Origin: Umbilicaria muhlenbergii
Lineage: Eukaryota; Ascomycota; Lecanoromycetes; Umbilicariales; Umbilicariaceae
Reading direction: 5' to 3'
Length of the DNA: 64,000 nt
NCBI GenBank assembly: GCA_000611775.1
Contig: KK106982.1
Span: 1,782,643-1,846,642, forward strand
The notes under the pieces were generated by a model. The model was not told where the DNA came from, did not search any database, and saw only the letters and a list, made by a program, of their open reading frames with translations. Made by a program: the position numbers and the translations under genes. Positions 20,211 to 60,633 of this stretch are shown piece after piece (the first letter of the stretch is position 1; every line of letters begins with the position of its first letter).

Positions 20211-20976
20211 ATGTCGTACTACTTCTGCATCATCGGTACAAAAGACAATCCACTCTTTGAACATGAATTCGGCACCTCGAAGCAGGGTGGTGATGGCATT
20301 GCGCGCTTCCCTCCGGAAGCTCGACACATGAATCAATTCATCGTCCATAGCAGCCTGGATATTGTGGACGAGGTGCAATGGCTCAATAATCAAATGTGAA
20401 ACCTTCCTCCCACGCTGTTCCCTAGAGACTCTGCTCTCATATTCTTCCGTCGATATATCCCGTCCACGGGCACGGTCTATCGTCGTTCGAACGTCACCCT
20501 ACGTCTTGTTACCAAGCCACATTACGAGCGCGAAACGGAGAAGCGCAGAGGTACTAACGGTGTTTCTCCGCAGGTATCTCAAAGTTATCGACAAGTTCTC
20601 CACCTCCCATATCTCCTGCTTCCTCACCCCCACCTCCGTCAAATTTCTCCTCCTCCACCTCCCGCATCCACCCAACACCCCTCCTCCCGCCAACAGCACC
20701 ACATTTCCCTTCACCTCCAGTTCCGCACCCTCTACCAATACCTCCACTTCCTCCCTCTCTCGATCCTCACTATCGTCCTCGTCATCCTCGACTTCCACTT
20801 CGATTGCGACGAATCCTACGAGTCCGCAGACGGAAGAAGCGATACGACAATTCTTCACGGAGGTGTGGGAGGTTTGGGTCAAGGCGACTATGAACCCGTT
20901 TTATCATGTCAATGATCCGGTCAAGAGTCCTGTCTTTAGGACGAGAGTTGCGGCGGCGGGGCGAAAGTATCTATAG
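20211..20976 (+). CDS. TRS20: TRAPP complex subunit Trs20 / sedlin, with Ser/Thr insert
   Basis: Sedlin is a small core subunit of the TRAPP tethering complexes at ER-Golgi and endosomal membranes. Exons 20211-20395 and 20574-20976 with a 178-bp intron give 195 residues. The start MSYYFCIIGTKDNPLFEHEF and HMNQFIVHSSLDIVDEVQW, then YLKVIDKF and the end FYHVNDPVKSPVFRTRV..GRKYL are typical longin-fold sedlin. Between TSVKFLLLH and EEAIRQFFTEVWE lies an insert of about 65 residues of Ser, Thr, Pro and Asn, making the protein longer than the usual ~140. Such loops are known in fungal sedlins but this one is long. Confidence 0.93.
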
Positions 20977-22091: not shown

Positions 22092-23838
22092 ATGGCGACC
22101 GAAAAGCAGGCTTTCGCCGACGAGACCAAGGAGGATGCGATCCTCGAGAAGCTGGGATACCAGCAAGAGCTAAAACGCTCGTTCGGCCTGCTGGGCATGA
22201 TCGGGTTCAGTTTCAGTATCGTGACGAGTTGGACGGCGCTGGGTGGGGTCTTGATTGTTGGAGTCGAGTCGGGAGGGCCTCCGGTCATGATCTATTCGTG
22301 GATTGGGGTCTCGATTTTTACGTTGGCGGTCGCCTACTCGATGGCGGAGATCTGCTCGGCGTACCCGGTTGCTGGTGGACAGTATTCTTGGGTGGCAGTG
22401 CTGGCGCCTCCGAATATGGCGAGGGGTTTGTCGTATGTTACAGGGTGGTTTATGCTTACTGGTAGGTTGGAGACGGTACCGCAGGGTCAAGGCATAATTG
22501 ATTGATGATGATTATAGGTATACTGGCTATGGGAGCTACCAACAACTTCATCGGAGCCAATTTCATCCTCGGCCAAGCCAACCTCGCATTCCCGTCATAT
22601 GTAATCGAGCGTTGGCACACCGTCCTGTTATCCTACCTCATAGCCCTCATGGCCACTGCCGTCAACATTTACGGGCCCCACCTGCTCGACCGCATATCCA
22701 AAGGAATCCTGATCTGGAACATCACCTCCTTCGTCGTCGTCGTCATCGTCATCCTTGCCACCAACCATCACAAGCAGCCCGCCAGCTTCGTCTTCCATGA
22801 TTTCCAGAACTTCACCGGTTTCGGCACCGCCTTCACCGCTATCCTGGGACTGCTGCAGAGCGCTTTCGGAATGTGCTGTTATGACGCGCCGGCGCATATG
22901 ACTGAGGAGATGAAGAATGCCTCGCGCGAAGCTCCGAAGGCTATTATTATGTCTGTGTATATTGGGGCGATTACGGGCTTTATCTTTTTGATTTCCATCT
23001 GCTTTTGCATCGGCGATATTACCTCGACCGCTCAGTCCACGACCGGGGTTCCACTAATTCAGATCTTCTACGACTCGACGGGTTCTGTGGTTGGAGCTTG
23101 TTTCCTCGCCTCACTTATCACCGTCATCGTTTTGGTGTGCGCCAACGCATTGCTGGCGGAGGGGTCGAGGAGCTTGTATGCGTTCGCCAGAGATAAGGGC
23201 TTGCCGTTTTCGAGCATCATCGCCAAGGTGGAGCCGAAGAGGCAGGTGCCTGTTTACGCGATATTATTGGCGTTGGCGGTACAGATGGCTTTGAACTCGA
23301 TCTACTTTGGGACTTTGACGGGCTTTAATACCGTCATTGCCATTGCTACCGAAGGCTTCTGTAAGTTCTTCTCTCAATTCAGCAGCACCAGCAACTTTAC
23401 GATGCGATTCACCTACTGACGCGACGATAAAACCCAGACCTCTCCTACGCCATGCCCCTCCTCGTCCGCATCATCGCGCGCTTCACCGGCCATGCCAAGG
23501 TGCTCCCAGGCCCGTACACGCTCGGTCGGTATGGCATCGTGCTCAATATCATTGGTCTCGTCTTTCTGCTTTTCACATCCATCACTTTCAATTTCCCCAC
23601 CGTTAATCCGGTCGATTATAATAATATGAATTATACGAGCGCGGCGATTGGAGTGATTGGATTGATTAGTATTGTCACTTGGTTGACGACGGGGAGGAAG
23701 CATTTTACGGGGCCGGGGACGGGGGTTAGTATTGTGGGGAGGGGGGTTGGGGGGGAGGATGGGAGTGATGGGGTGGCTGTCGGGGCTGTGGGGAGGGGTG
23801 AGAAGGGAGCCGAGGGATTCGATATGAAAGATCTTTGA
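22092..23838 (+). CDS. Amino acid/choline-type permease (APC superfamily)
   Basis: Plasma-membrane transporter for amino acids, GABA or choline. Exons 22092-22461, 22518-23360, 23438-23838 (introns 56 and 77 bp) join in frame to 537 residues, with about 12 hydrophobic segments. The start ELKRSFGLLGMIGFSFSIVTSWTAL is the TM1 signature of the fungal GABA/choline branch; YPVAGGQYSWVAVLAP and the EEMKNASREAPKAII loop are also typical of this branch (Uga4/Hnm1-like). The C-terminal tail is Gly-rich. Substrate cannot be told. Each exon runs from C-rich to G-rich on the coding strand. It is convergent with the kinase-like gene downstream. Confidence 0.9.
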
Positions 23839-24122
23839 TGCTGAGGGTTTAGAGAGTCTATATATCTGTATATTGACCCAGAACCTACCACGTTGTATCA
23901 AACTGTTGCTTACAAACCACACCAAATCTTCTGTTGCTCCTAAGCCCATCCCAAAGGATTCTCATGAACCAATTTTGGGTATGCAGTTACAATTCTAATT
24001 TTCAAAGCGCTAATCTGCCGACTCCGTTATCCGACTCCATCCTTATATCCGTTTTCTTCCATCTCCAGCAACCCTCTTGCGGCATGTACTTCCTAACACA
24101 ATTCCACCCTCTTAACACAATC

Positions 24123-24953
24123 TCAAGACCCCAAACCCAGCATGCACGCCTCGACAATCCCCCTCACCTCCTGATACACCTCCTCCTTCGCCCGCCGACA
24201 ATCCACCTATTCCACATCAGCGACCTTCAAACCAAAAAGCTCAATTGACACCTCACCTTCACCAGTCGCCCCCGCTCCTCAAACATCCCAATAACCGGCC
24301 CACTCAACCCCTCAAACCGCTCACTCCGCCGCCGAAAATCCTTCGCATTATCTTCCGCCCTCCCAGACACCTGTCCCCTCCCCACGACCCGCTCGCGCCT
24401 CGTGTGCTCGGGGGCTTCGAACAGCAACATCAGCAGACCCGGGCCAACCTGTAGCATACACATGTCAATCAACACCATCTACCCCTCGTTCTCGTCTCGA
24501 TCTTGTCTCGTTCTCGTCTCACTCCCACTCAGCTCGGCCACGAACCTTCCTCTCGAACTCCTCCGCCTGGCCCACAGACCGCGGAAACCCATCGAGAACA
24601 AACCGCCGTTGCCCCTGCGCGCAGCACCACTCGATGTGCTCTTTAAGCAGCTGCACGGACAGGTCGTCGGGCGCTAGATTACCCGGACGGTCTGGGTTAT
24701 TGGGCAGGTGGGCGAGGCAGGAGTTGGGACGGGCTCGTTCGGCGCGTTGGAGGTCGCCGAAGGAGATGTGCGTTAGGGAGAGGTCGAGGGCGAGGTGGGC
24801 GCATTGGGTGCCTTTGCCTGCGCCGGGGGGGCCTGCCAGAGGGGGGTTAGTGGAGGGGGGTCTGGGGTTTTGGGGGGTTGGAAGGGGGGGGTTACCGATT
24901 ACGAAGATGAATTTGGGGGCATCGGGTTGTGGGGGGGCGGGATTGGGTTCCAT
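24123..24953 (-). CDS. UMP/CMP-kinase-like (adenylate kinase family) protein
   Basis: Nucleoside monophosphate kinase fold: transfers phosphate from ATP to an NMP. Exons on the minus strand: 24896-24953, 24546-24832, 24257-24448, 24123-24206; introns 63, 97 and 50 bp; 206 residues. P-loop GPPGAGKGTQC is split by intron 1. Then SFGDLQRAE in place of the usual SAGDLLR, FVLDGFPRS (NMP core), FEAPEH, and GRGQVSGRAEDN (lid: TSGRxDDN-like). The lid is short, as in UMP/CMP kinases and short adenylate kinases. Differences from the norm in the NMP-binding region suggest a changed substrate or a weakly active enzyme; inference only. An upstream Met frame at 25072 leads into a different frame, so I start at 24953. 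Confidence 0.83.
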
Positions 24954-27091: not shown

Positions 27092-28607
27092 CTACGTCGT
27101 GAACGCTTGATATTGCCCATCAGTCAGCGGCCGACTAGCCTGAACAAACCGCCCGACCAGCCGCGCCACTTCCAGCGGCCGATCCTCCATCGGATAATGA
27201 CCCGCACGCTCAATCCACTGCCCGCCCAGCGCATGTAATTGCAGACTCGGCTCAATCGTATGCACCAAAACATCCTTAAAATCCACCAACAGCGGATCAT
27301 TATGCCCGAACGCCACCATCACCTGCGGCCGCATCTCATCCTGCAAGTTTTCAGATGACTCTGCCCAAAAAGATCGGACGAATCGGTTGCGTTCCGCGAG
27401 TCGGGCTTGCGCGGTTATGTTCGTGAAAGTTTGGGGGTCGAGGAGGCCTTCGACCATTCGCCATAGATAATGATCTCGGAGTGATAGCGCAAAGTCGGGG
27501 ATACCGGGCACGATATGGGCGAATCTGCTCACACTTGCCTTTGTTGCTGGTCCAGCTGTGAAGGGCGCACAGTAGCCGTCCATGATTCTCGAGGTCGTCT
27601 GGGGGGACATGTAGCGCATCACGGCCGACTCGGGGAGGTAGCCATCGAAGATGCCGGTGCTGAAGAACCAGATGAGGTAGAGCATATAAGAATGGATGGT
27701 GATGTCGGTTGGGCGGGGTGGGAAGAATGTGTTGAGGAGGAAGACGCTCGTGCAGATTCCTGGCGTCAGGTCTGGTAACGTGGAGAGTGCAACACATCTG
27801 TTTCACTCAGCGTTGTTAGCCAATTCCCCCTCTGTGCACCCTCTGCCACGTTGGTGTACTTACCCTCCCCAGTCGTGTGCGACAATGCAGCAATTCGTGA
27901 TGTTGAATTCCGCCAACAAAGCCCGTAATGTACGCATGTGAAGCTCGAATGAGATCATGGACGGCTGGGATGGTTTATCGCTAAGTCCATGGCCAATCCA
28001 ATCGAGAGCATACACCTCATGGCCTTGCTGCGTGAGGTGCGGGATTACCTGCAAACAGGAGTCAGTTTCGTGGCTTCCGTGGGTCCCAGATGGCAGCTGG
28101 AACACTCACATTCCTCCACATGAAAGACCAGCTCGGATTTCCGTGCAGAAGCACAACGGTCCGCCCTGTGGTCTTCTCCGGCTTCTCATGGACAACACCC
28201 ACATTTGCACCGCAAACAGAGAATCTCTCGGTATTTGGCGACCAATGCGCTTCACGAAGACATCTCCTCACATCGGTCCGGAAGATTTGTCCCTCGTGGA
28301 AGAGGACGCAACTTCCATCGTACTGCCTGCGCGCCAAGTCTTCTTCCCGCGCTCTTTGCTGATCAGACTCCTTGACCAGCTGTTCCCGGCCGCTCGGTGT
28401 TAGCAAAAGTTGGCAGCTGTTAAAGATACTTGGCAGTGCCTCGACGGTTTTGACGAGTATATATGCTGGGAGTAGGTAGATCAGGGCAATCGTCATGCGC
28501 ACAGTGGTAGAGGAGAGGATGAGAACGCATAATCGGAATACAGGGCGCAGGACGATGTCTCGGTATGATTGAGGCGTATGTGTTGAGGCACCCGTATGCT
28601 TGGTCAT
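27092..28607 (-). CDS. Alpha/beta hydrolase, haloalkane-dehalogenase/epoxide-hydrolase-like, membrane-anchored
   Basis: Exons on the minus strand 28110-28607, 27864-28048, 27092-27797 (introns 61 and 66 bp), 462 residues. Hydrolase motifs in order: HGNPSWSFMWR (oxyanion loop), DWIGHGLSDKP, VAHDWGG (nucleophile Asp), GHNDPLLVDF (region of the acid), and AGHYPMEDRP (catalytic His). The Trp after the nucleophile and the HGNP motif fit haloalkane dehalogenases as well as epoxide hydrolases. A hydrophobic segment near residues 25-60 (MTIALIYLLPAYILVKTVEAL) suggests a membrane anchor that soluble bacterial dehalogenases lack. Start chosen at MTKHTG; another in-frame Met lies at 28631. Substrate unknown; lipid epoxides are a reasonable guess. 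Confidence 0.85.
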
Positions 28608-29245
28608 TGTGTCCAAAACCGTACAGCACAAGAGAAGAAGGTTGGTTTCGAATCATGGGTGCAGGCTGAATGCTCCCAATGTTTGATGACTTTGAGATGG
28701 CATGTGAATTGACGACGTCATTGTTGACGCGACGCCGCTGGATAGGATTTTGGACGGCAATATCCATGACGCTTGTAGGCCTGCAGGTGGAGACTGGGAA
28801 AAAGTTGTCGATGATGATCTTCCGTTCTGGCGATCTTCATATGCAAACAGCGGCCAATATCAACCACATCAATATTAGTGCATTGGCCACAATACTCGGC
28901 TGAGGCCTGTTGTCCGCTTGCAGAACACGGGTTCCCAGCCGAGCCAGCCTTATTGAATGCCAAGCTTTGTAGCGGGGGCGTGGCTCCCCTGCCAATGGAG
29001 TAATCGAACTAATGATGAGATCAACAACAATTGCCATTGTAAAGACAACACACCCACCATCGACAACGACAGCGACTCGAAACACACACGACGCGGACGC
29101 TCGCGCTTGTTACGTACCATGCGACCGTCAAGAGGAGGAGTCTAGCGCAAGCGGGATACTTCCCAGGATTCTACACGACCACCCCCATCGAGTCTCGACG
29201 ACAACAGCACCGAAAGACTCGGACATCTGCGACATCAACTGACGC
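28608..29245. promoter_or_regulatory. Divergent upstream region, hydrolase / NudE
   Basis: Promoters of both genes lie here, and probably the first NudE exon, which I could not place. A frame with FYTTTPIESRRQQHRK at 29160-29250 reads like protein but does not join the NudE frame without an unseen intron. Confidence 0.4.
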
Positions 29246-31743
29246 AGTTTCACCGACACCACGGCTTCCAGTCCTTCCAGTCCCGAGCGTCGGAGGCTGT
29301 TTGATCACAAGCATCAACAGCCTCCGACCTCACCCTCCTTCGCACACAGTCCACTTAGCCATATCGCTGCCTTTGGGCGCCTTCCACCGACCCTGGGGTC
29401 AGTCGAAGAACCTCCATCCTCGCCAGCAGCCCCAAATGCATTCACATCAACCGAAGATGCGCTAGCGTACTACAAGTCACAATACGAGCTGCTAGAGGCC
29501 GAACTTGCCGACTTCCAAGCCTCAAGTCGAGAGCTAGAGGCTGAGTTGGAGAAGGACGTGGAGGCTTCAGAGAAAAGGGAGAGACAGCTCCAGGAAAAGG
29601 TCGAAAGCCTTGGGTTTGAAGTAGACGAATGGAAGGTGTGTTCAACTAGTCTGCTATAGTGGAGATAGAATCTGGCGTATGATCTTTGATGCTAATAGTT
29701 CCCAAATAGTCGAAATACAAGCAATCCAAGGCAGAAGCGAATTCGGCTCAGAATACGCTCCAGAAAGAGATTACTACCTTACGGGATACCAACAGGACAA
29801 TACAGCTGAAGCTTCGTGATATTGAAGTGGCGAACGATGATTTCGAGCGACAAGCTAGGAATACGACTTCGTCGCTGGAAGATCTGGAATCAAAGTACAA
29901 CGTCGCCATCGAGCGTGCGGTCATGCTGGAGGAGGAAATCAAATTGGGTGAGCAGGAGAGGGAGGCTCTAAGGATCGAGACGCAGCGACTGCGCGACGAG
30001 CTATCCGATCTCAAGGTGGAAGCAGAGATTATGCAGGACAAGCTACACCACGCCGGAGCAGGGTCGAAGCGCCAAGTCAGAAAACCTACAGTTCTTGGCC
30101 CAGGTATCCCCCGACCGCAATCGCCTGTTTCGGAAAATTCAGCCGGAACGACCACGTCCTCTCCCGTTCTCGCTACGCCTCCGACCAAGTCAGCGTCTTC
30201 GTCAACCTCAGATGCGCCAACACCACCATCGCCTCCTATTTCTAATTCCTCCATCCCTGCGAGCTCGAAGAATACAGCTCTACCTCAACCGAAATCACGC
30301 TTGTCCATCTCAGACTCGAACTCCACACCACGACCTTCGCACTACGCCTCGCGGCCTCCGCGTCATTCTCGAGGCCCCTCGATACCGGTCAGCAACGGCG
30401 GATTAACCCCATCCATTCCCAGGCGGACTACGATCAACCGGCCCGATGGGCCACAACAGCAATCCCTCGGCCTCCCACATTCCGGCTCTCTCCATCAAAT
30501 CCGCGGTCTAATCGGCAAGATGAAAAACCTCGAACAACGCGTGCACTCCGCGCGGTCCAAGCTCCCCGGCCCAACAATGACACCCCCAGGCGCCTCACCC
30601 CGCAGCGGTTCCTCCTTGGGGCAATCTCACATCCCTGCGTCGGTGACAGTGCGCAGCCATAAGAAGCGCACCGGCGACAGCAACATCAATGGTTCCCTCT
30701 TCAAAGAGTCTGGCACTGAGTCAACACTGATGAGTAAGCGGAACTTTAGCCGCCTCTCCTTCGGCCCTTCGACAGCAACACCCACTCGCGACAACAGGCC
30801 CGAGAACACCAACAACAGCACGCACGCCAGCAGACCCAGCTCTCGAGCCAGCCTCTCCAGTCGAAGCTCTATCTCCCAGCTAACAGGCGCGTACGCCCCC
30901 ACCGCCTCCTCCAACAACCGGCCCAGCAGTCGCCAGGGCCAAGCCACGGCATCATCGGCCAACAACCGACCCAGCAGCCGTCAAGGCTTCACCACGGCCC
31001 CGACTTCCACCACCCGCTCAAGCAGTCGTCAAGGCTATCCTCCCGTCTCCTTCAACAACCGACCCAGCAGTCGCCAAAGCTACTCGGAAGCCCCCACATC
31101 CACCACCCGACCCAGCAGTCGTCAAGACCACTCCACCGCCGCCCCCACATCCACCACCCGCCCCCCCAGCCGCCAAGGCTACCCCCTCGTCGCCTCCTCC
31201 GTCAACCGCCCACCCAGTCGCCAAGACCACCCCTCCGCAGCCCCCACATCCACCACCCGCTCCCCCAGCCGCCAAGCCCGCCCNNNNNNNNNNNNNNNNN
31301 NNNNNNNNNNNNNNNNNNNNNNNNNNNNNNNNNNNNNNNNNNNNNNNNNNNNNNNNNNNNNNNNNNNNNNNNNNNNNNNNNNNNNNNNNNNNNNNNNNNN
31401 NNNNNNNNNNNNNNNNNNNNNNNNNNNNNNNNNNNNNNNNNNNNNNNNNNNNNNNNNNNNNNNNNNNNNNNNNNNNNNNNNNNNNNNNNNNNNNNNNNNN
31501 NNNNNNNNNNNNNNNNNNNNNNNNNNNNNNNNNNNNNNNNNNNGGGGTGGAGGGAGGGGGGTAGAGGGGAGTGCGATTCCGACGCTGAAGGGGGCGGGGA
31601 GGAGGGGGAGTGGTGTGGGAATGGGGTTAGGGGCTGGGGTAGGGAGGAGGGTTAGTGCGGCGATGGGACCGCCGGAGTGGAGGGGGGGTGGAGGTGGGAG
31701 GAAGGGGGTGGGTGGTGGGGGTGGGGTTGGGGAGAGTTATTAA
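29246..31743 (+). CDS. nudE: NudE-type dynein regulator (coiled coil), partial by assembly gap
   Basis: NudE binds LIS1/NudF and dynein and is needed for nuclear migration in hyphae. Coding is clear from about 29246 to 29635, then after a 74-bp intron (29636-29709) to 31743. The coiled coil ([20 protein letters not shown], then [18 protein letters not shown] and MQDKL) is the conserved NudE N-domain. The C-terminal half is Ser/Pro/Arg-rich. From about 30900 it holds repeated RPSSRQ-type units, up to the gap at 31284-31543; after the gap the frame is Gly-rich and ends at 31743. The first exon with the start codon is not resolved, and gap length may be arbitrary, so continuity across it is assumed. 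Confidence 0.82.
30900..31283 (+). repeat. Coding minisatellite in NudE (RPSSRQ-type units of ~16-18 codons)
   Basis: Eight or nine units, each with (N/T)RPSSRQ or RPPSRQ followed by about 10 variable residues, often APTSTT or SSVN. The array runs straight into the assembly gap, which suggests it was too repetitive to assemble. Confidence 0.8.
31284..31543. other. Assembly gap (260 N)
   Basis: Run of N. It lies at the border between C-rich coding strand on the left and G-rich on the right. Confidence 1.
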
Positions 31744-32677
31744 GAGGGTTATTTGGGTTTTCGGGCGGTACCAGCTGGCTGGGTGTTTGGCTTGGGGTTT
31801 GAGGAGTGCGGTTGCGAGGGTATGTTGAATGGATTTTTCTTGATTTGCAGAGGAGCTAGTTGGTGGTAGGGTAGGGTAGGGTAGGGGTTGAGCCGGTTTG
31901 TATATATTGCTTGGTGGTCTTACCGCAGATTTATTTACAGATTATGAGGTTGATTCGAGGGCTTGGGTTTTCCACTGTGTAGGTTTTATAACCGCCCTAC
32001 TTTGCCCACTGTTCGCTGATGCTTTCCGCACGGGGTGAGCTCTCCGCTGTTGTTTTGTCTTTCTGTCGTTTGGTGTGTTGAGCTGTCGTCATCCTATCTA
32101 TCATCGAACGCCATTCTTGCTCTTACTCCGCCCATAAGATGTTAGTTACCGCAAGAGATGAATACTCTCTTTCAGCTCAGCTTTTAAACTCGATCTCATG
32201 ATTCGTTAACAGATACTATAGATGCCGCCGAACTCCAATATATTCCACTAGAAATGAAAATCTATGGACGCACTAACTCTGAAAAGGAAACTCGTGAAGC
32301 TGAATAGAAGCCAGACGCGCATTCTCTGTACCCACTTGAGCCTTGTTTGATCTGTCCGACGCAGTGGAGGCGGTGTGGGGTTGCTAGATTGGGCTTCTGG
32401 CGGGCGATTTGCTTGGTTGAAGCGACAACGCTGGGATTCTGGTTTGAAAATGGATGCTCGGTGTGCTACATGGAATCCTCGACTTGGTCGGTGCGGTGCC
32501 TCCTGAGCGTGATGGGGGCGTTGTCTGTGAGGAAGGGGTTGGTGTGTCTAGTTTAGGCGGGATATGATATGATGACAGGCGAATTGAAACGACGTACCCA
32601 TTGCGATTCGGCAAGACTTAAGGGCGGAGTGTTGACAGATTCAGAGGCGTCCTGGAATCAATGGGAAGAAAGAGGTC
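31744..32677. other. Intergenic between NudE and NLR, convergent 3' ends
   Basis: Starts G-rich with a short TAGGG pentamer run near 31866-31887. No gene seen; the frame at 32347-32556 has no support. Confidence 0.45.
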
Positions 32678-35600
32678 CTAGGTAAGCTGTGTTGGTTCCT
32701 CGGTAATAGGTGGGGAAGCTGGAGGAGGTTGGGACTCCATCGCTGATTCTAGCAGTTGAATTACCGCCTTAAACGAGGATTTGTGTCCTGATGCCCAAGG
32801 TTCCGTCTCGCCTTTTAATGCCGCCTGCAGTGCAGTGCCATACTTCCCACCTTTTACATGAACATCTGCCCCCTCCTTCAGCAGCAGCTGCACCACTGCC
32901 TCAGAGCCCCTGTATGATGCTGCCTGCAGTGCATTGCCAAAATCTCCACCTTTTGCATGAACATCTGCCCCCTCCTTCAGCAGCAGCTGCACCACTGCCT
33001 CAGAGCCCCTGTATGATGCTGCCTGCAGTGCATTGCCAAAATCTCCACCTTTTGCATGAACATCTGCCCCCTCCTTCAGCAGCAGCTGCACCACTGCCTC
33101 AGAGCCCCTGTATGATGCTGCCTGCAGTGCATTGCCAAAATCTCCACCTTTTGCATGAACATCTGCCCCCTCCTTCAGCAGCAGCTGCACCACTGCCTCA
33201 GAGCCCCTGTATGATGCTGCCTGCAGTGCATTGCCAAAATCTCCACCTTTTGCATGAACATCTGCCCCCTCCTTCAGCAGCAGCTGCACCACTGCCTCAG
33301 AGCCCCTGTATGATGCTGCCTGCAGTGCATTGCCAAAATCTCCACCTTTTGCATGAACATCTGCCCCCTCCTTCAGCAGCAGCTGCACCACTGCCTCAGA
33401 GCCCCTGTATGATGCTGCCTGCAGTGCATTGCCAAAATCTCCACCTTTTGCATGAACATCTGCCCCCTCCTTCAGCAGCAGCTGCACCACTGCCTCAGAG
33501 CCCCTGTATGATGCTGCCTGCAGTGCATTGCCAAAATCTCCACCTTTTGCATGAACATCTGCCCCCTCCTTCAGCAGCAGCTGCACCACTGCCTCAGAGC
33601 CCCTGTATGATGCTGCCTGCAGTGCATTGCCAAAATCTCCACCTTTTGCATGAACATCTGCCCCCTCCTTCAGCAGCAGCTGCACCACTGCCTCAGAGCC
33701 CCTGTATGATGCTGCCTGCAGTGCATTGCCAAAATCTCCACCTTTTGCATGAACATCTGCCCCCTCCTTCAGCAGCAGCTGCACCACTGCCTCAGAGCCC
33801 CTGTATGATGCTGCCTGCAGTGCATTGCCAAAATCTCCACCTTTTGCATGAACATCTGCCCCCTCCTTCAGCAGCAGCTGCACCACTGCCTCAGAGCCCC
33901 TGTATGATGCTGCCTGCAGTGCATTGCCAAAATCTCCACCTTTTGCATGAACATCTGCCCCCTCCTTCAGCAGCAGCTGCACCACTGCCTCAGAGCCCCT
34001 GTATGATGCTGCCTGCAGTGCATTGCCAAAATCTCCACCTTTTGCATGAACATCTGCCCCCTCCTTCAGCAGCAGCTGCACCACTGCCTCAGAGCCCCTG
34101 TATGATGCTGCCTGCAGTGCATTGCCAAAATCTCCACCTTTTGCATGAACATCTGCCCCCTCCTTCAGCAGCAGCTGCACCACTGCCTCAGAGCCCCTGT
34201 ATGATGCTGCCTGCAGTGCATTGCCAAAATCTCCACCTTTTGCATGAACATCTGCCCCCTCCTTCAGCAGCAGCTGCACCACTGCCTCAGAGCCCCTGTA
34301 TGATGCTGCCTGCAGTGCATTGCCAAAATCTCCACCTTTTGCATGAACATCTGCCCCCTCCTTCAGCAGCAGCTGCACCACTGCCTCAGAGCCCCTGTAT
34401 GATGCTGCCTGCAGTGCATTGCCAAAATCTCCACCTTTTGCATGAACATCTGCCCCCTCCTTCAGCAGCAGCTGCACCACTGCCTCAGAGCCCCTGTATG
34501 ATGCTGCCTGCAGTGCATTGCCAAAATCTCCACCTTTTGCATGAACATCTGCCCCCTCCTTCAGCAGCAGCTGCACCACTGCCTCAGAGCCCCTGTATGA
34601 TGCTGCCTGCAGTGCATTGCCAAAATCTCCACCTTTTGCATGAACATCTGCCCCCTCCTTCAGCAGCAGCTGCACCACTGCCTCAGAGCCTCTGCATGAT
34701 GCCGCCTGCAGTGCATTGCCATAATGTCCACCTTTTGCATTGACATCAGCCCCTTCCTTCAGCAGCAGACGTATTAATTCAGTCACCTCATTTAATGACC
34801 CATAGTACAACGGATTCGCGATCTCCGCTATTTCCCTATTCAAATCAAAGCGCACCCGTCCTAGATCAGGGTCGTAAAATCGGTACCAATTAACATAGGC
34901 TTCTCTACGAACCAGGCATAATTCTAGAATGAGCATCCTGATAGGATCGAGGTTTTTGCCGACTACTCGTGTGTGTTGCATCCAATATTCTGCTGCGTAA
35001 GGGGCTAGCGGAAAGTCCTCAATAGTTTTCGAGGTCAAGGAATCATGTTGATCGAATTGAAGAAGATATGCGAGACAGGCCGCAGCTATGAACTGGTGTG
35101 CCTCTATCTCTTGTATAGCATATCTAGCAGTAGCAGCCGCTTGGTCTCGGATCCGCTCCGACACAAGATACTCTTTGACAGAGAAATGCGCAAGTCTGAC
35201 TGCCTGGTAGCTCTTCTTCTCTGGACTGTATGGAACGTCTATTATAACTTCCTCGGTGGTGACCAGGCTAGAACACAAAGCCAATATGTCTTGCTGCTCG
35301 TCAAATCGCCCGTCGCAGTCAAACCATGGACTGCCGTCTACGTTCACAGCAAATATCTCAGCAAGTTCTTCAAGCCGCAGCGGCCGTGCCGAATAGGCAA
35401 GCCATTGCAAAACCTTAATCGCGTAATCGCTGTGTTCTTCGGGTATCTTGCAAAGCATTCGAGCGTACGTCTCGTCCAACGTTTTCGGCAGGGATTTCAA
35501 GGCTGTTCGAAGCATTGGAAGGTTGAAGCAAGTTCGCAACACATCAAGTTGACATACTGCCCAACGAAACCTAAACATGAGATCTATCAGCTCCATTGCA

Positions 35601-49238: not shown

Positions 49239-49982
<744 letters not shown>

Positions 49983-58827: not shown

Positions 58828-59956
58828 TCACAGCACATCTCTAACCTTTCCCGTATCGGCCCCACTCGTCTTCGCAGCCCCATCGGCGTGTAGCTTATTC
58901 TGCAATACAACCTCCCGAGGATCTTTAGGGGTCTTGTATCGGATAGACTGCTGGGACGGAAGGTGGGAAGACGAGGGCTTGCGGCCGTGTTGAGCCGCTT
59001 GCCCCGCGGGGGTTTGGGTCAGGAGTTGGAGTTCGCGCAGCATGAGGTCGCGGGTAGTGCGGGTGAGGTCGTCGACGTCGGCGGGGGTGAGCCCTTTAGT
59101 CGAGATGGGTGGGAGGACTATTCAAACCAACGAATTAACGGATGTCTTTCCCGTAGAACCCCCCTCACCCCCCCCCCAGCAGGAAGACCCCTCCACAAGG
59201 ACTAAAGGGACAGAAAACCCCATGGAAAAACTCACCCTTCACCGGGATCCTCCCCCCCTCAAACCTTCTCGCGCTCGGACTCATCACCCCCGCATAAACC
59301 CCCGCCACAACCGGCACGACCTCCACCTGCGCCTTCACCGCCAGATGAAACGCCCCCTTCTTAAACGGCAGCAACTCCGCCTCCTGCGCATAACTCCTTG
59401 TCCCCTCCGGAAAGATAAACACGCTCTGCCCCTCCCGTCTCATCTCCTCCGCCGCCCCATCAAACGCCCTGACCGCCGTCTCCCGGTTCGCGCGGTCAAT
59501 AAACACCGTCCCGCTGAGCCGCATAAACCACCCGAGAAAGGGCACGCGGGCGAGCGATTTCTTCGCCGTGACGGCGCAGTGCGGCGGGAACACCGCGCCC
59601 AGCAAGAGCACGTCGAGTTCGCTCTGGTGGTTCGCGACGAAGACGGCGGGGCGCGTGGCGAGGTGTTGGGCGCCGGCGACGACGTCGAAGCGCACGCCGG
59701 TGAGGAGGCGCATGCTCCATTTGAAGGCGCGCGCGACGGTGTGTTGCGTGCTGCGGTGGTGGCCGGCGAGGCGGAGGGCGAGGGCGGCGAGGACGCCGTA
59801 GGCGGCGCAGAGGAGGAGGCAGAGGTAGGAGGAGAGGCAGCGGGCGTAGAAGGAGGGGAGGGGGTGGTGGAGGAGGAGGGAGAGGGCGTGGAGGGTAGGG
59901 ATGGAGAGGAGGGCGAGGAGGAGGAGGAGGAGCGGGTAGAAAAGGAGGGGGTGCAT
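58828..59956 (-). CDS. 1-acyl-sn-glycerol-3-phosphate acyltransferase (PlsC family)
   Basis: Makes phosphatidic acid from lysophosphatidic acid at the ER. Exons on the minus strand 59236-59956 and 58828-59093 (142-bp intron), 328 residues. N-terminal hydrophobic segments (residues about 4-65), then VANHQSELDVLLLG (the HX4D catalytic motif), KSLARVPFLGWFMRLSGTVFIDR, FIFPEGTRS (lysophosphatidate-binding EGTR), FKKGAFHLAV and PVVAG. The C-terminal tail of about 80 residues is polar and variable. I start at MHPLLFYPL; the frame stays open further upstream but that part is Pro/Ser-rich and unlikely. Same orientation as ACC1 upstream. Confidence 0.93.
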
Positions 59957-60633
59957 TGGTGGTGGTGGTGTTGTGGGGGTTCGAGGTGAGGGAAATGAAA
60001 GGGAGGAGTGGGAGGGAGGGATGGTGGATGTTTGCGAGGGGGCCGCGATGTCGGAAGCCGAGTGCCGAGGCTGGGTGGAGTCGAGTCTGGAGGGAGACGG
60101 GTTCGAGCTGGTTATGATCGTAGAATCATGGTCGAGTATGTGGATATGTGTGTAGAGAGCAGTGTATGTCAGGAGCGCCGGGTGATGTTGATGGGGAGGA
60201 CGGGGTGGGAGGATGATAGGTAGCGTGTGACCGCCCAAGCAAAAACCGACAGTAGCCCCCACACCATCGCCGAGCCCCCGAGGCTCGTTCTTCGGCACAG
60301 GCATCATGATGGTGACGCTCCCTGCACGCCAAAATGTCTTTCTTCGGACCTGTTGCTACATACATCGACCTTGCGGATAGCTACCTAGTCACCTTACGCA
60401 TTCGATGAGATGCTGCATGGCATGCGAAAAGCTGGTCTTTGAGTCCTCCAAATTACTGCTTGGGCTATCAAGCACGCGAGTTCTTACGGCCAATCATGTT
60501 AATAGAACTTATGTGACGCCGGGATTCGCATTGCTATTCTCCAGAAAATGTACAGATGTCAAACGAGCATAGAAAGATTGTAGAATTACCACGCTTAACC
60601 GCCGGAAAGCATTGCCCGAAACTCTCCGATCTT
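59957..60633. other. Acyltransferase promoter and ACC1 3' flank
   Basis: Purine-rich stretches on the plus strand at 59957-60060. Nothing else seen. Confidence 0.45.

Follow-up and report, generated by a model that had tools for sequence, protein, structure and literature searches.

In the sampled DNA of Umbilicaria muhlenbergii, exons mostly start C-rich and end G-rich on their coding strand, and this skew tends to drop back at introns. The exon pattern is real and extends beyond the window (the whole stretch of 64,000 nucleotides analyzed here, at C2:1782643-1846642 in a genome of 34.79 Mb and 7 contigs), and the reset from one exon to the next is real as well and depends on the intron. Along exons, C and G are exchanged independently of neighboring bases and to an extent that goes well beyond what amino-acid content accounts for. 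From these observations we tentatively infer that the pattern reflects mutation rather than selection, with transcription as the probable driver and splicing itself as the likely agent of the reset.

Sample and Gene Models

The sampled DNA amounts to ~350 kb and comprises the window, 24 stretches of 10 kb placed at round coordinates on all 7 contigs, which were unselected and served to test the pattern outside its place of discovery, and 18 stretches carrying relatives of a permease gene of the window. Gene models come from a home-made exon-intron finder that took this DNA as its training set; they are uncurated and shift slightly from one training round to another. The first gene set holds 89 genes and 186 exons, and the final one, with all permease stretches added, 112 genes and 269 exons with a median intron of 62 bp. 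Exon trends were counted on the coding strand, from C-rich to G-rich, in exons of at least 180 bp, and the jump at an intron is the skew in the 120 bp after it minus that in the 120 bp before it. Genes cut by an edge were left out where complete genes were needed, which leaves 66 multi-exon genes for the regression of exon against gene position.

Pfam supports the identities of the permease, adenylate kinase, NudE, ankyrin repeats, RING, mitochondrial carrier, acyltransferase, and Sedlin (TRS20) genes; SH3 fell under the cut-off, and the LRR-like gene had no Pfam match. The names DBP9, CBR1, ACC1, CDC27, H4, phosphoketolase, and acetate kinase were taken over from the original prediction and matched by place, and these identities are presumptive. 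One segment of the presumed ACC1 found no relatives in genome_contigs or viral_contigs, and whole-genome pattern counts (13 for the C version, with 19 for the reversed control, and 5 for the G version, with 3 for the control) were too few and not clearly above control.

A Saw-Tooth in the Window Permease and Neighboring Genes

The window permease (22092-23838, + strand) and the convergent gene beyond it are laid out as follows:

22092..22461, + strand: permease exon 1, with third-position skew by quarters of +0.22, +0.22, +0.33, and +0.88
22462..22517, + strand: permease intron 1, where skew falls by 0.58, at a column common to the C1 paralog L002
22518..23360, + strand: permease exon 2 (AA_permease_2, Pfam E 2e-36), with third-position quarters of -0.56, -0.33, -0.21, and +0.29
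23361..23437, + strand: permease intron 2, where skew falls by 0.40
23438..23838, + strand: permease exon 3, with third-position quarters of -0.52, -0.53, +0.80, and +0.71
23850..24122, no strand: convergent intergenic stretch, where + strand skew flips from G-rich to C-rich
24123..24953, - strand: adenylate kinase gene (ADK, Pfam E 1e-20), which passes from C-rich to G-rich on its own coding strand
24833..24895, - strand: kinase intron of 63 bp, a multiple of 3; the gene finder read through it, and it was placed by hand from the sequence

The saw-tooth score of the permease is 2.26, which none of 2000 synonymous-codon shuffles reached (maximum 1.25). The original prediction held that every permease exon goes from C-rich to G-rich and that the pattern resets after the introns. 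The resets are borne out by the drops of 0.58 and 0.40, and so is the direction of change in exons 2 and 3; in exon 1, third positions do rise, but their first quarter is not C-rich and the all-site difference between the two halves is nil (-0.03). The G-rich block of exon 3 extends beyond the stop codon, to about 23900. The closest paralog of the gene, on C1, is 95% identical in amino acids over exon 2 and 83% in DNA, and both introns and the skew profile are common to the two genes over the aligned 1.7 kb.

The convergent adenylate kinase had been expected to show the same pattern on the minus strand. It does rise, with a score of 0.77 that 6 of 2000 synonymous shuffles reach, but the reset is absent at the two introns tested (+0.08 and 0.00). 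Moreover, a C-to-G run along a strand is its own reverse complement, so the convergent gene brings no independent evidence for a coding-strand rule. Joined across the 63-bp intron, the frame of this gene reads GPPGAGKGTQ, a P-loop motif.

Among the other genes of the window, four are referred to by position below:

20211..20976, + strand: TRS20 (Sedlin_N), with an intron drop of 0.81 and exon changes of -0.04 and +0.90
58828..60307, - strand: acyltransferase, with exon changes of +0.69 and +0.50 and an intron drop of 0.97
27092..28607, - strand: alpha/beta-hydrolase-like gene (Pfam just under the cut-off), with exon changes of +0.45, +0.18, and +0.42 and drops of 0.42 and 0.44
28957..31743, + strand: NudE (NUDE_C), with a C-rich exon body leading to a G-rich block and intron jumps of -0.53, +0.56, and -0.40

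The pattern had also been claimed for a series of these genes, and it fits well in TRS20 (drop 0.81), in the acyltransferase (drop 0.97), and in the gene at 49323-49790, perhaps the histone H4 of that series. The carrier and the LRR-like gene do rise (+0.23 each), but the intron needed to test a reset is absent or has a flank of only 27 bp, and the pattern is mixed in CDC27 and the RING/SH3 gene. NudE is mixed too, with two introns that drop and one that rises by 0.56; its G-rich block has a skew of about 0.7 to 0.8 at 31501-31900 and runs past the stop codon. The alpha/beta-hydrolase-like gene runs from C to G in all 3 of its exons. Some genes had been declared exempt, and phosphoketolase and ACC1 indeed show little, with acetate kinase mixed; the exemption fails for DBP9 (exon changes +0.57 and +0.11, jump -0.35) and for CBR1 (exon changes +0.76, +0.34, and +0.46; jumps -0.51, -0.16, and -0.10), both of which carry the pattern.

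Rise within Exons

At all sites, 140 of the 188 exons of at least 180 bp in the final set rise, 47 fall, and 1 does neither, the rises being distributed as 33/41 in the window, 68/93 in the 24 stretches, and 39/54 in the permease stretches; at third positions, 136 of the 188 go from C to G. The first gene set gave 99 of 136 exons at third positions (29/37 in the window and 70/99 at other loci), with a mean change of +0.276 (p 2e-10). The trend is strongest in exons of 350-600 bp, where skew taken by tenths climbs from -0.29 to +0.36 (n=42). Exons longer than 2 kb have no net trend (4 of 11 up), and exons of 90-180 bp that follow an intron start at a skew of +0.08 and are not C-rich there. The original prediction would have been abandoned had G-to-C and C-to-G exons been equally numerous, or had the trend been lost after amino-acid control, and within the sample neither is observed.

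Reset at Introns

Of 90 introns examined in 60 genes, 74 show a fall in skew, with a mean jump of -0.211 (19/23 in the window, 29/38 in the 24 unselected stretches, 26/29 in the permease stretches). Among high-confidence canonical introns, with the nearest 15 bp excluded, 41 of 47 drop, and pseudo-introns placed inside exons show the opposite mean change at third positions (+0.074). An annotation-free scan for intron motifs yields 150 changes down and 99 up (n=251), compared with 181 down and 166 up of 349, and 148 and 135 of 285, in controls with broken motifs. With 60-bp flanks, the introns beside short exons go down in 41 of 58 cases (mean -0.11), and those between exons of at least 150 bp in 55 of 75 (mean -0.25). 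The flanks are almost antisymmetric about introns, with ~200 bp of G-rich sequence before and ~200 bp of C-rich sequence after, and the introns with large drops go from +0.21 before, through -0.08 in the intron core, to -0.26 after. With its intermediate skew, the core gives no support to a switch located exactly at the 5' splice site. The jumps within a gene are not significantly alike (p 0.17), and across 53 genes jump size is not significantly related to GC3, C3, length, or exon number.

Is the unit of this gradient the exon or the gene? When the skew of 30-bp bins was regressed on gene position and exon position in the 66 complete multi-exon genes (146 introns), the slope was 0.182 for exon position and 0.025 for gene position; taken singly, the two explain 0.083 and 0.030 of the variance. 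The exon slope reached at most 0.099 in 500 runs with random cuts and at most 0.114 in 500 runs with permuted exon orders, and with the last 300 bp of each gene removed it was 0.139, the gene slope being -0.104. As the exon slope far exceeds the gene slope, the gene-long gradient is, in this sample, mostly the sum of exon-long ones.

The permease family allowed the presence and absence of an intron to be compared at the same codon column. Beyond the window gene and L002, 20 permease relatives stand behind 23 matches; stretches were taken for 18 of them and the other 2 were left out, as were L039 and L043, which have no predicted gene of more than 900 coding bases. In the 18 aligned family genes, window gene and L002 included (14 genes in an earlier round), skew drops at 26 of 29 columns where an intron is present, with a mean of -0.265, whereas the same columns without an intron drop in 28 of 105 cases and rise on average by +0.141. 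The paired test of presence against absence gives p 1e-7 (n=28), for family members that are not independent of each other, and flanks of 90 and 150 bp agree. That intron-less paralogs seldom drop at the same column indicates that protein content is not the cause, and the recurrence of several intron columns across several permease genes supports the intron calls.

Bases and Sites That Change

Fourfold sites hold C at 0.42 and G at 0.20 within 100 bp downstream of introns, C at 0.27 and G at 0.39 from 200 to 100 bp before introns, and C at 0.27 and G at 0.32 in the last 100 bp before them. Their skew goes from +0.08 to -0.36 across introns (100 bp on each side), with a GC content around introns of 0.58-0.66, C and G being swapped and A and T moving little. 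The shift is weaker at codon positions 1 and 2 (+0.13 to -0.05). By gene, fourfold skew is -0.29 in the first 100 bp and +0.37 in the last 100 bp, where G stands at 0.42 and C at 0.19 before the stop. The exchange is alike whichever base follows and also when C, G, or T precedes, and no neighbor-context mutation signature was seen. The change in AT skew along exons at third positions is -0.128, opposite in sign to that in GC skew. Immediately ahead of introns, other third positions have an AT skew of -0.34, T being gained over A.

Synonymous shuffles retain 0.084 of the 0.198 seen along exons and -0.081 of the -0.212 seen at introns, and none of 200 reach the observed values; amino-acid content can therefore be rejected as the whole cause, since it accounts for only about 40% of the size. 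Several other candidates were rejected as well: cytosine deamination or a RIP-type C-to-T process, since GC is steady and C and G are exchanged with no context preference; replication-origin skew, since the sign flips every few hundred bases; and clustering of G-quadruplexes or G runs, since GGG is found 1123 times, fewer than the 1304 in shuffled exon ends.

At the 5' end of genes, skew is about -0.15 (about -0.13 after the start), and just before the stop it is +0.38. Upstream of the start the coding strand is C-rich, with -0.18 at -20 and -60 and zero by about -380, and promoters, tandem intergenic stretches included, have on average no G-rich left side. Past the stop, the 3'UTR begins at +0.29 and the G excess continues until about +140 to +180 bp, in agreement with the prediction that the G-rich part often runs past the stop codon, and this may mark the end of the transcript near +140 to +180 bp. 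An excess of G that extends into the 3'UTR does not stem from translation alone.

Drops away from Introns

Of 89 strong drops within gene bodies, 38 have a called intron no more than 60 bp away, versus 17.6% of positions, as do 8 of 143 strong rises, from which it follows that introns attract drops and repel rises. The other 51 drops lie farther off, and some of them may come from introns that were missed or from wrong gene ends. The five that were inspected sit in open frames (L007:9564, L013:5104, L013:6144, L016:4833, and window 38761), and they could mark introns that were lost, uncalled introns with a length divisible by three, borders of another kind, or faulty gene models.

Long uninterrupted exons are also organized in blocks of skew, correlated over about 150 bp. 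In exons of at least 600 bp, the autocorrelation of G minus C is 0.48 at 30 bp and reaches zero at about 300-360 bp, compared with 0.11 throughout after codon shuffling, and for A minus T in long exons it remains near 0.15 and does not decay in this way; in 22 E. coli genes the G-minus-C correlation is about 0. Unfiltered intergenic DNA gives 0.40 at 30 bp (0.18 when shuffled) and, under a strict non-coding filter, little block structure. We prefer the unfiltered result, as a strict filter disfavors skewed sequence, which tends to lack stops.

Possible Origins of the Exon-Long Gradient

The explanation that we tentatively retain, with a confidence that falls a little short of even, is a transcription-linked C/G bias restarted at introns, splicing being its likely agent. 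A strand-biased pressure would swap C for G along transcribed segments, favoring C on the coding strand after a start, be it that of transcription or an intron, and G before an end, be it an intron or the end of the transcript. Each intron would restart the cycle and thereby turn the gene-long gradient of fungi into a saw-tooth with one tooth per exon. The pressure itself may be a bias in transcription-linked mutation or repair, with a sign set by the state of RNA polymerase II and its nascent transcript; co-transcriptional splicing would return this complex to a state resembling early elongation, and the late state would then be rebuilt across a few hundred bases, as far as the following intron or the 3' end. 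The original prediction, which knew of no name for the pattern, had suggested a transcription-linked mutation bias, R-loops, or recombination; of these, transcription does fit as the source, the interpretation as a whole being supported in part. Transcription is favored by the 3' end (+0.38), which far exceeds the 5' end, and by promoters that lack a mirrored G-rich side. Counting against this explanation are the 51 of 89 drops off introns, the antisymmetry, the intergenic blocks, the two kinase introns with no reset, and the one rise in NudE, as well as the weak effects at short exons and jumps that are neither significantly alike within a gene (p 0.17) nor significantly related to GC3, C3, length, or exon number.

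Selection on the RNA, by which C-rich exon starts and G-rich ends would aid splicing, elongation speed, or transcript packaging, would account for the tie to introns and for the shift at codon positions 1 and 2. We rank it second but hold it to be unlikely, given that the effect is largest at fourfold sites, extends some 200 bp inside exons, far past splice signals, and goes with G runs that are rarer than in shuffled sequence. The two flanks of an intron show no specific pairing with each other (n=85, p 0.84), and neither do the start and end of an exon (n=123, p 0.3), although pairing at the level of composition is possible. The sign of the skew cannot by itself tell which strand is transcribed, since C-to-G is its own reverse complement, and a two-sided DNA process at introns and gene borders, leaving G-rich sequence on the left and C-rich sequence on the right whichever strand is transcribed, is therefore possible. 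It could involve DNA poor in nucleosomes, breaks that are repaired on exposed single strands, or a strand-dependent C/G gene conversion, and it would suit the almost antisymmetric profile with its intron core midway. A context-free exchange restricted to C and G would suit a process with unequal treatment of C:C and G:G mismatches. Yet promoters show no mirror image, 3' ends are far stronger than 5' ends, and breaks are not known to be an established feature of introns, which makes this process quite unlikely.

The order of events might also be the reverse, introns having been gained or kept where DNA already ran from G-rich to C-rich. The drops with no called intron and the ~150-bp skew blocks of long uninterrupted exons lean that way, but the intron-less permease paralogs, distant as they are, rise on average (+0.141) instead of dropping more weakly, and we consider a skew that came first highly unlikely. 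A last rival would put the pattern down to an artefact, whether from protein content or from the home-made gene finder, or to chance. The shifting of uncurated models between training rounds and the share of about 40% of the effect held in amino-acid content speak for it; against it, synonymous shuffles, the motif scan, high-confidence introns, intron columns shared by paralogs, and separate stretches all agree, and its probability is close to negligible. Under the transcription-linked bias, splicing might even leave a heritable footprint in DNA, strand composition recording the positions of introns, past ones included, an idea that we regard as conceivable but somewhat improbable; the drops inside uninterrupted exons would then be traces of lost introns.

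An exon-long unit with a reset at introns offers a sharp test of the cause of the gradient, in which intron gains and losses act as natural experiments, and any explanation must involve splicing or something else sited at introns. The bias also shifts amino-acid and codon use along exons, which in fungi is of consequence for evolutionary rates, for gene finding, and for work on codon usage. Should the pattern prove to be mutational, splicing would shape the mutation spectrum of the genes on which it acts.

Relation to Known Strand Asymmetries

A study of 2004 reportedly linked strand asymmetry to transcription and splice sites, mainly in animal introns. In fungi, a C-to-G gradient along whole genes has been described in almost all species examined, filamentous ones included (McLean and Tirosh 2011, PMC3315797). 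Its proposed causes were mutation dependent on the phase of transcription or, for gene ends, an avoidance of C linked to scarce CTP, and the choice between mutation and selection was left open there. The gradient reported here resembles it in its C-biased gene starts and G-biased ends, in its presence at fourfold sites and in promoter and 3'UTR, and, at fourfold sites, in a change carried by C and G, with little from A and T. The two differ in their unit: open reading frames were pooled whole in bins by McLean and Tirosh, in whose accessible text the word exon occurs 0 times and intron once, whereas here the unit is mainly the exon, introns reset the skew, and a whole-gene unit is not what we observe. 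They also differ in that a positive correlation of GC and AT skew is given in the available part of that paper, whereas the two change in opposite directions at third positions here.

Other systems are alike at single points. The C bias at plant and fungal transcription starts has a counterpart in the C excess that we see just upstream of the start codon, but that work concerns starts, and the word intron is absent from its accessible text (Fujimori et al. 2005, PMC555766). In Leptosphaeria maculans, the C skew of promoters likewise appears as a C excess, which peaks about 50 bp upstream of start codons, but the context there is T-DNA insertion sites, and the available sections describe no gradient along exons or introns (Bourras et al. 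2012, PMC3411245). The proposal of splicing as a brake on transcription-associated mutagenesis shares with our reading the idea that splicing alters transcription-linked mutation, but it deals, in the portions at hand, with topoisomerase I cuts and short deletions and not with base skew (Niu and Yang 2011, PMC3118952). A reset of skew at introns was not found in the literature searched, a coverage that leaves most subscription journals outside. Set beside these systems, the gene-long gradient of fungi is what was known, and the exon-long unit, with its reset at introns, is what appears to be new.

Skew drops outside called introns

Along the coding strand, strong drops in GC skew from G-rich to C-rich were found within open reading frames that carry no called intron, both in the window and in stretches sampled elsewhere in the same genome (stretch:position):

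L007:9564, G-to-C drop
L013:5104, G-to-C drop
L013:6144, G-to-C drop
L016:4833, G-to-C drop
window 38761, G-to-C drop

These positions are candidates for sites of lost introns, for missed introns, or for wrong gene models. One intron of the adenylate kinase gene is strongly C-rich, has a length that is a multiple of three and contains no stop, and gene finders may read through it:

window 24833-24895 (-), kinase intron, 63 bp

Extended G-rich blocks

Third-position skew stays at about +0.6 across three of the four quarters (about 2 kb) of the following feature, with no reset:

window 32678-35570 (-), ankyrin-repeat region within an NLR-like gene

Among the strongest skew blocks observed is one at the end of the NudE gene (window 31501-31900), where GC skew stays at about 0.7 to 0.8 for 400 bp and the block continues beyond the stop codon.

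Comparison across the genome

Four sampled stretches are AT-rich and possibly represent mutated repeats: L011, L022 and L023, with a GC content of 32-37% against mostly about 52% in the remaining stretches, and L015, grouped with them, with about 41% outside its 2136 withheld letters. Their G/C block structure is weaker, the correlation of G-minus-C counts at 30 bp being 0.17 versus 0.45 in long exons. The window permease has a close paralog on another contig:

L002 (C1:6887840-6891189), permease paralog

The two share 95% amino-acid identity over exon 2 and the same introns, and their skew profiles are much alike.
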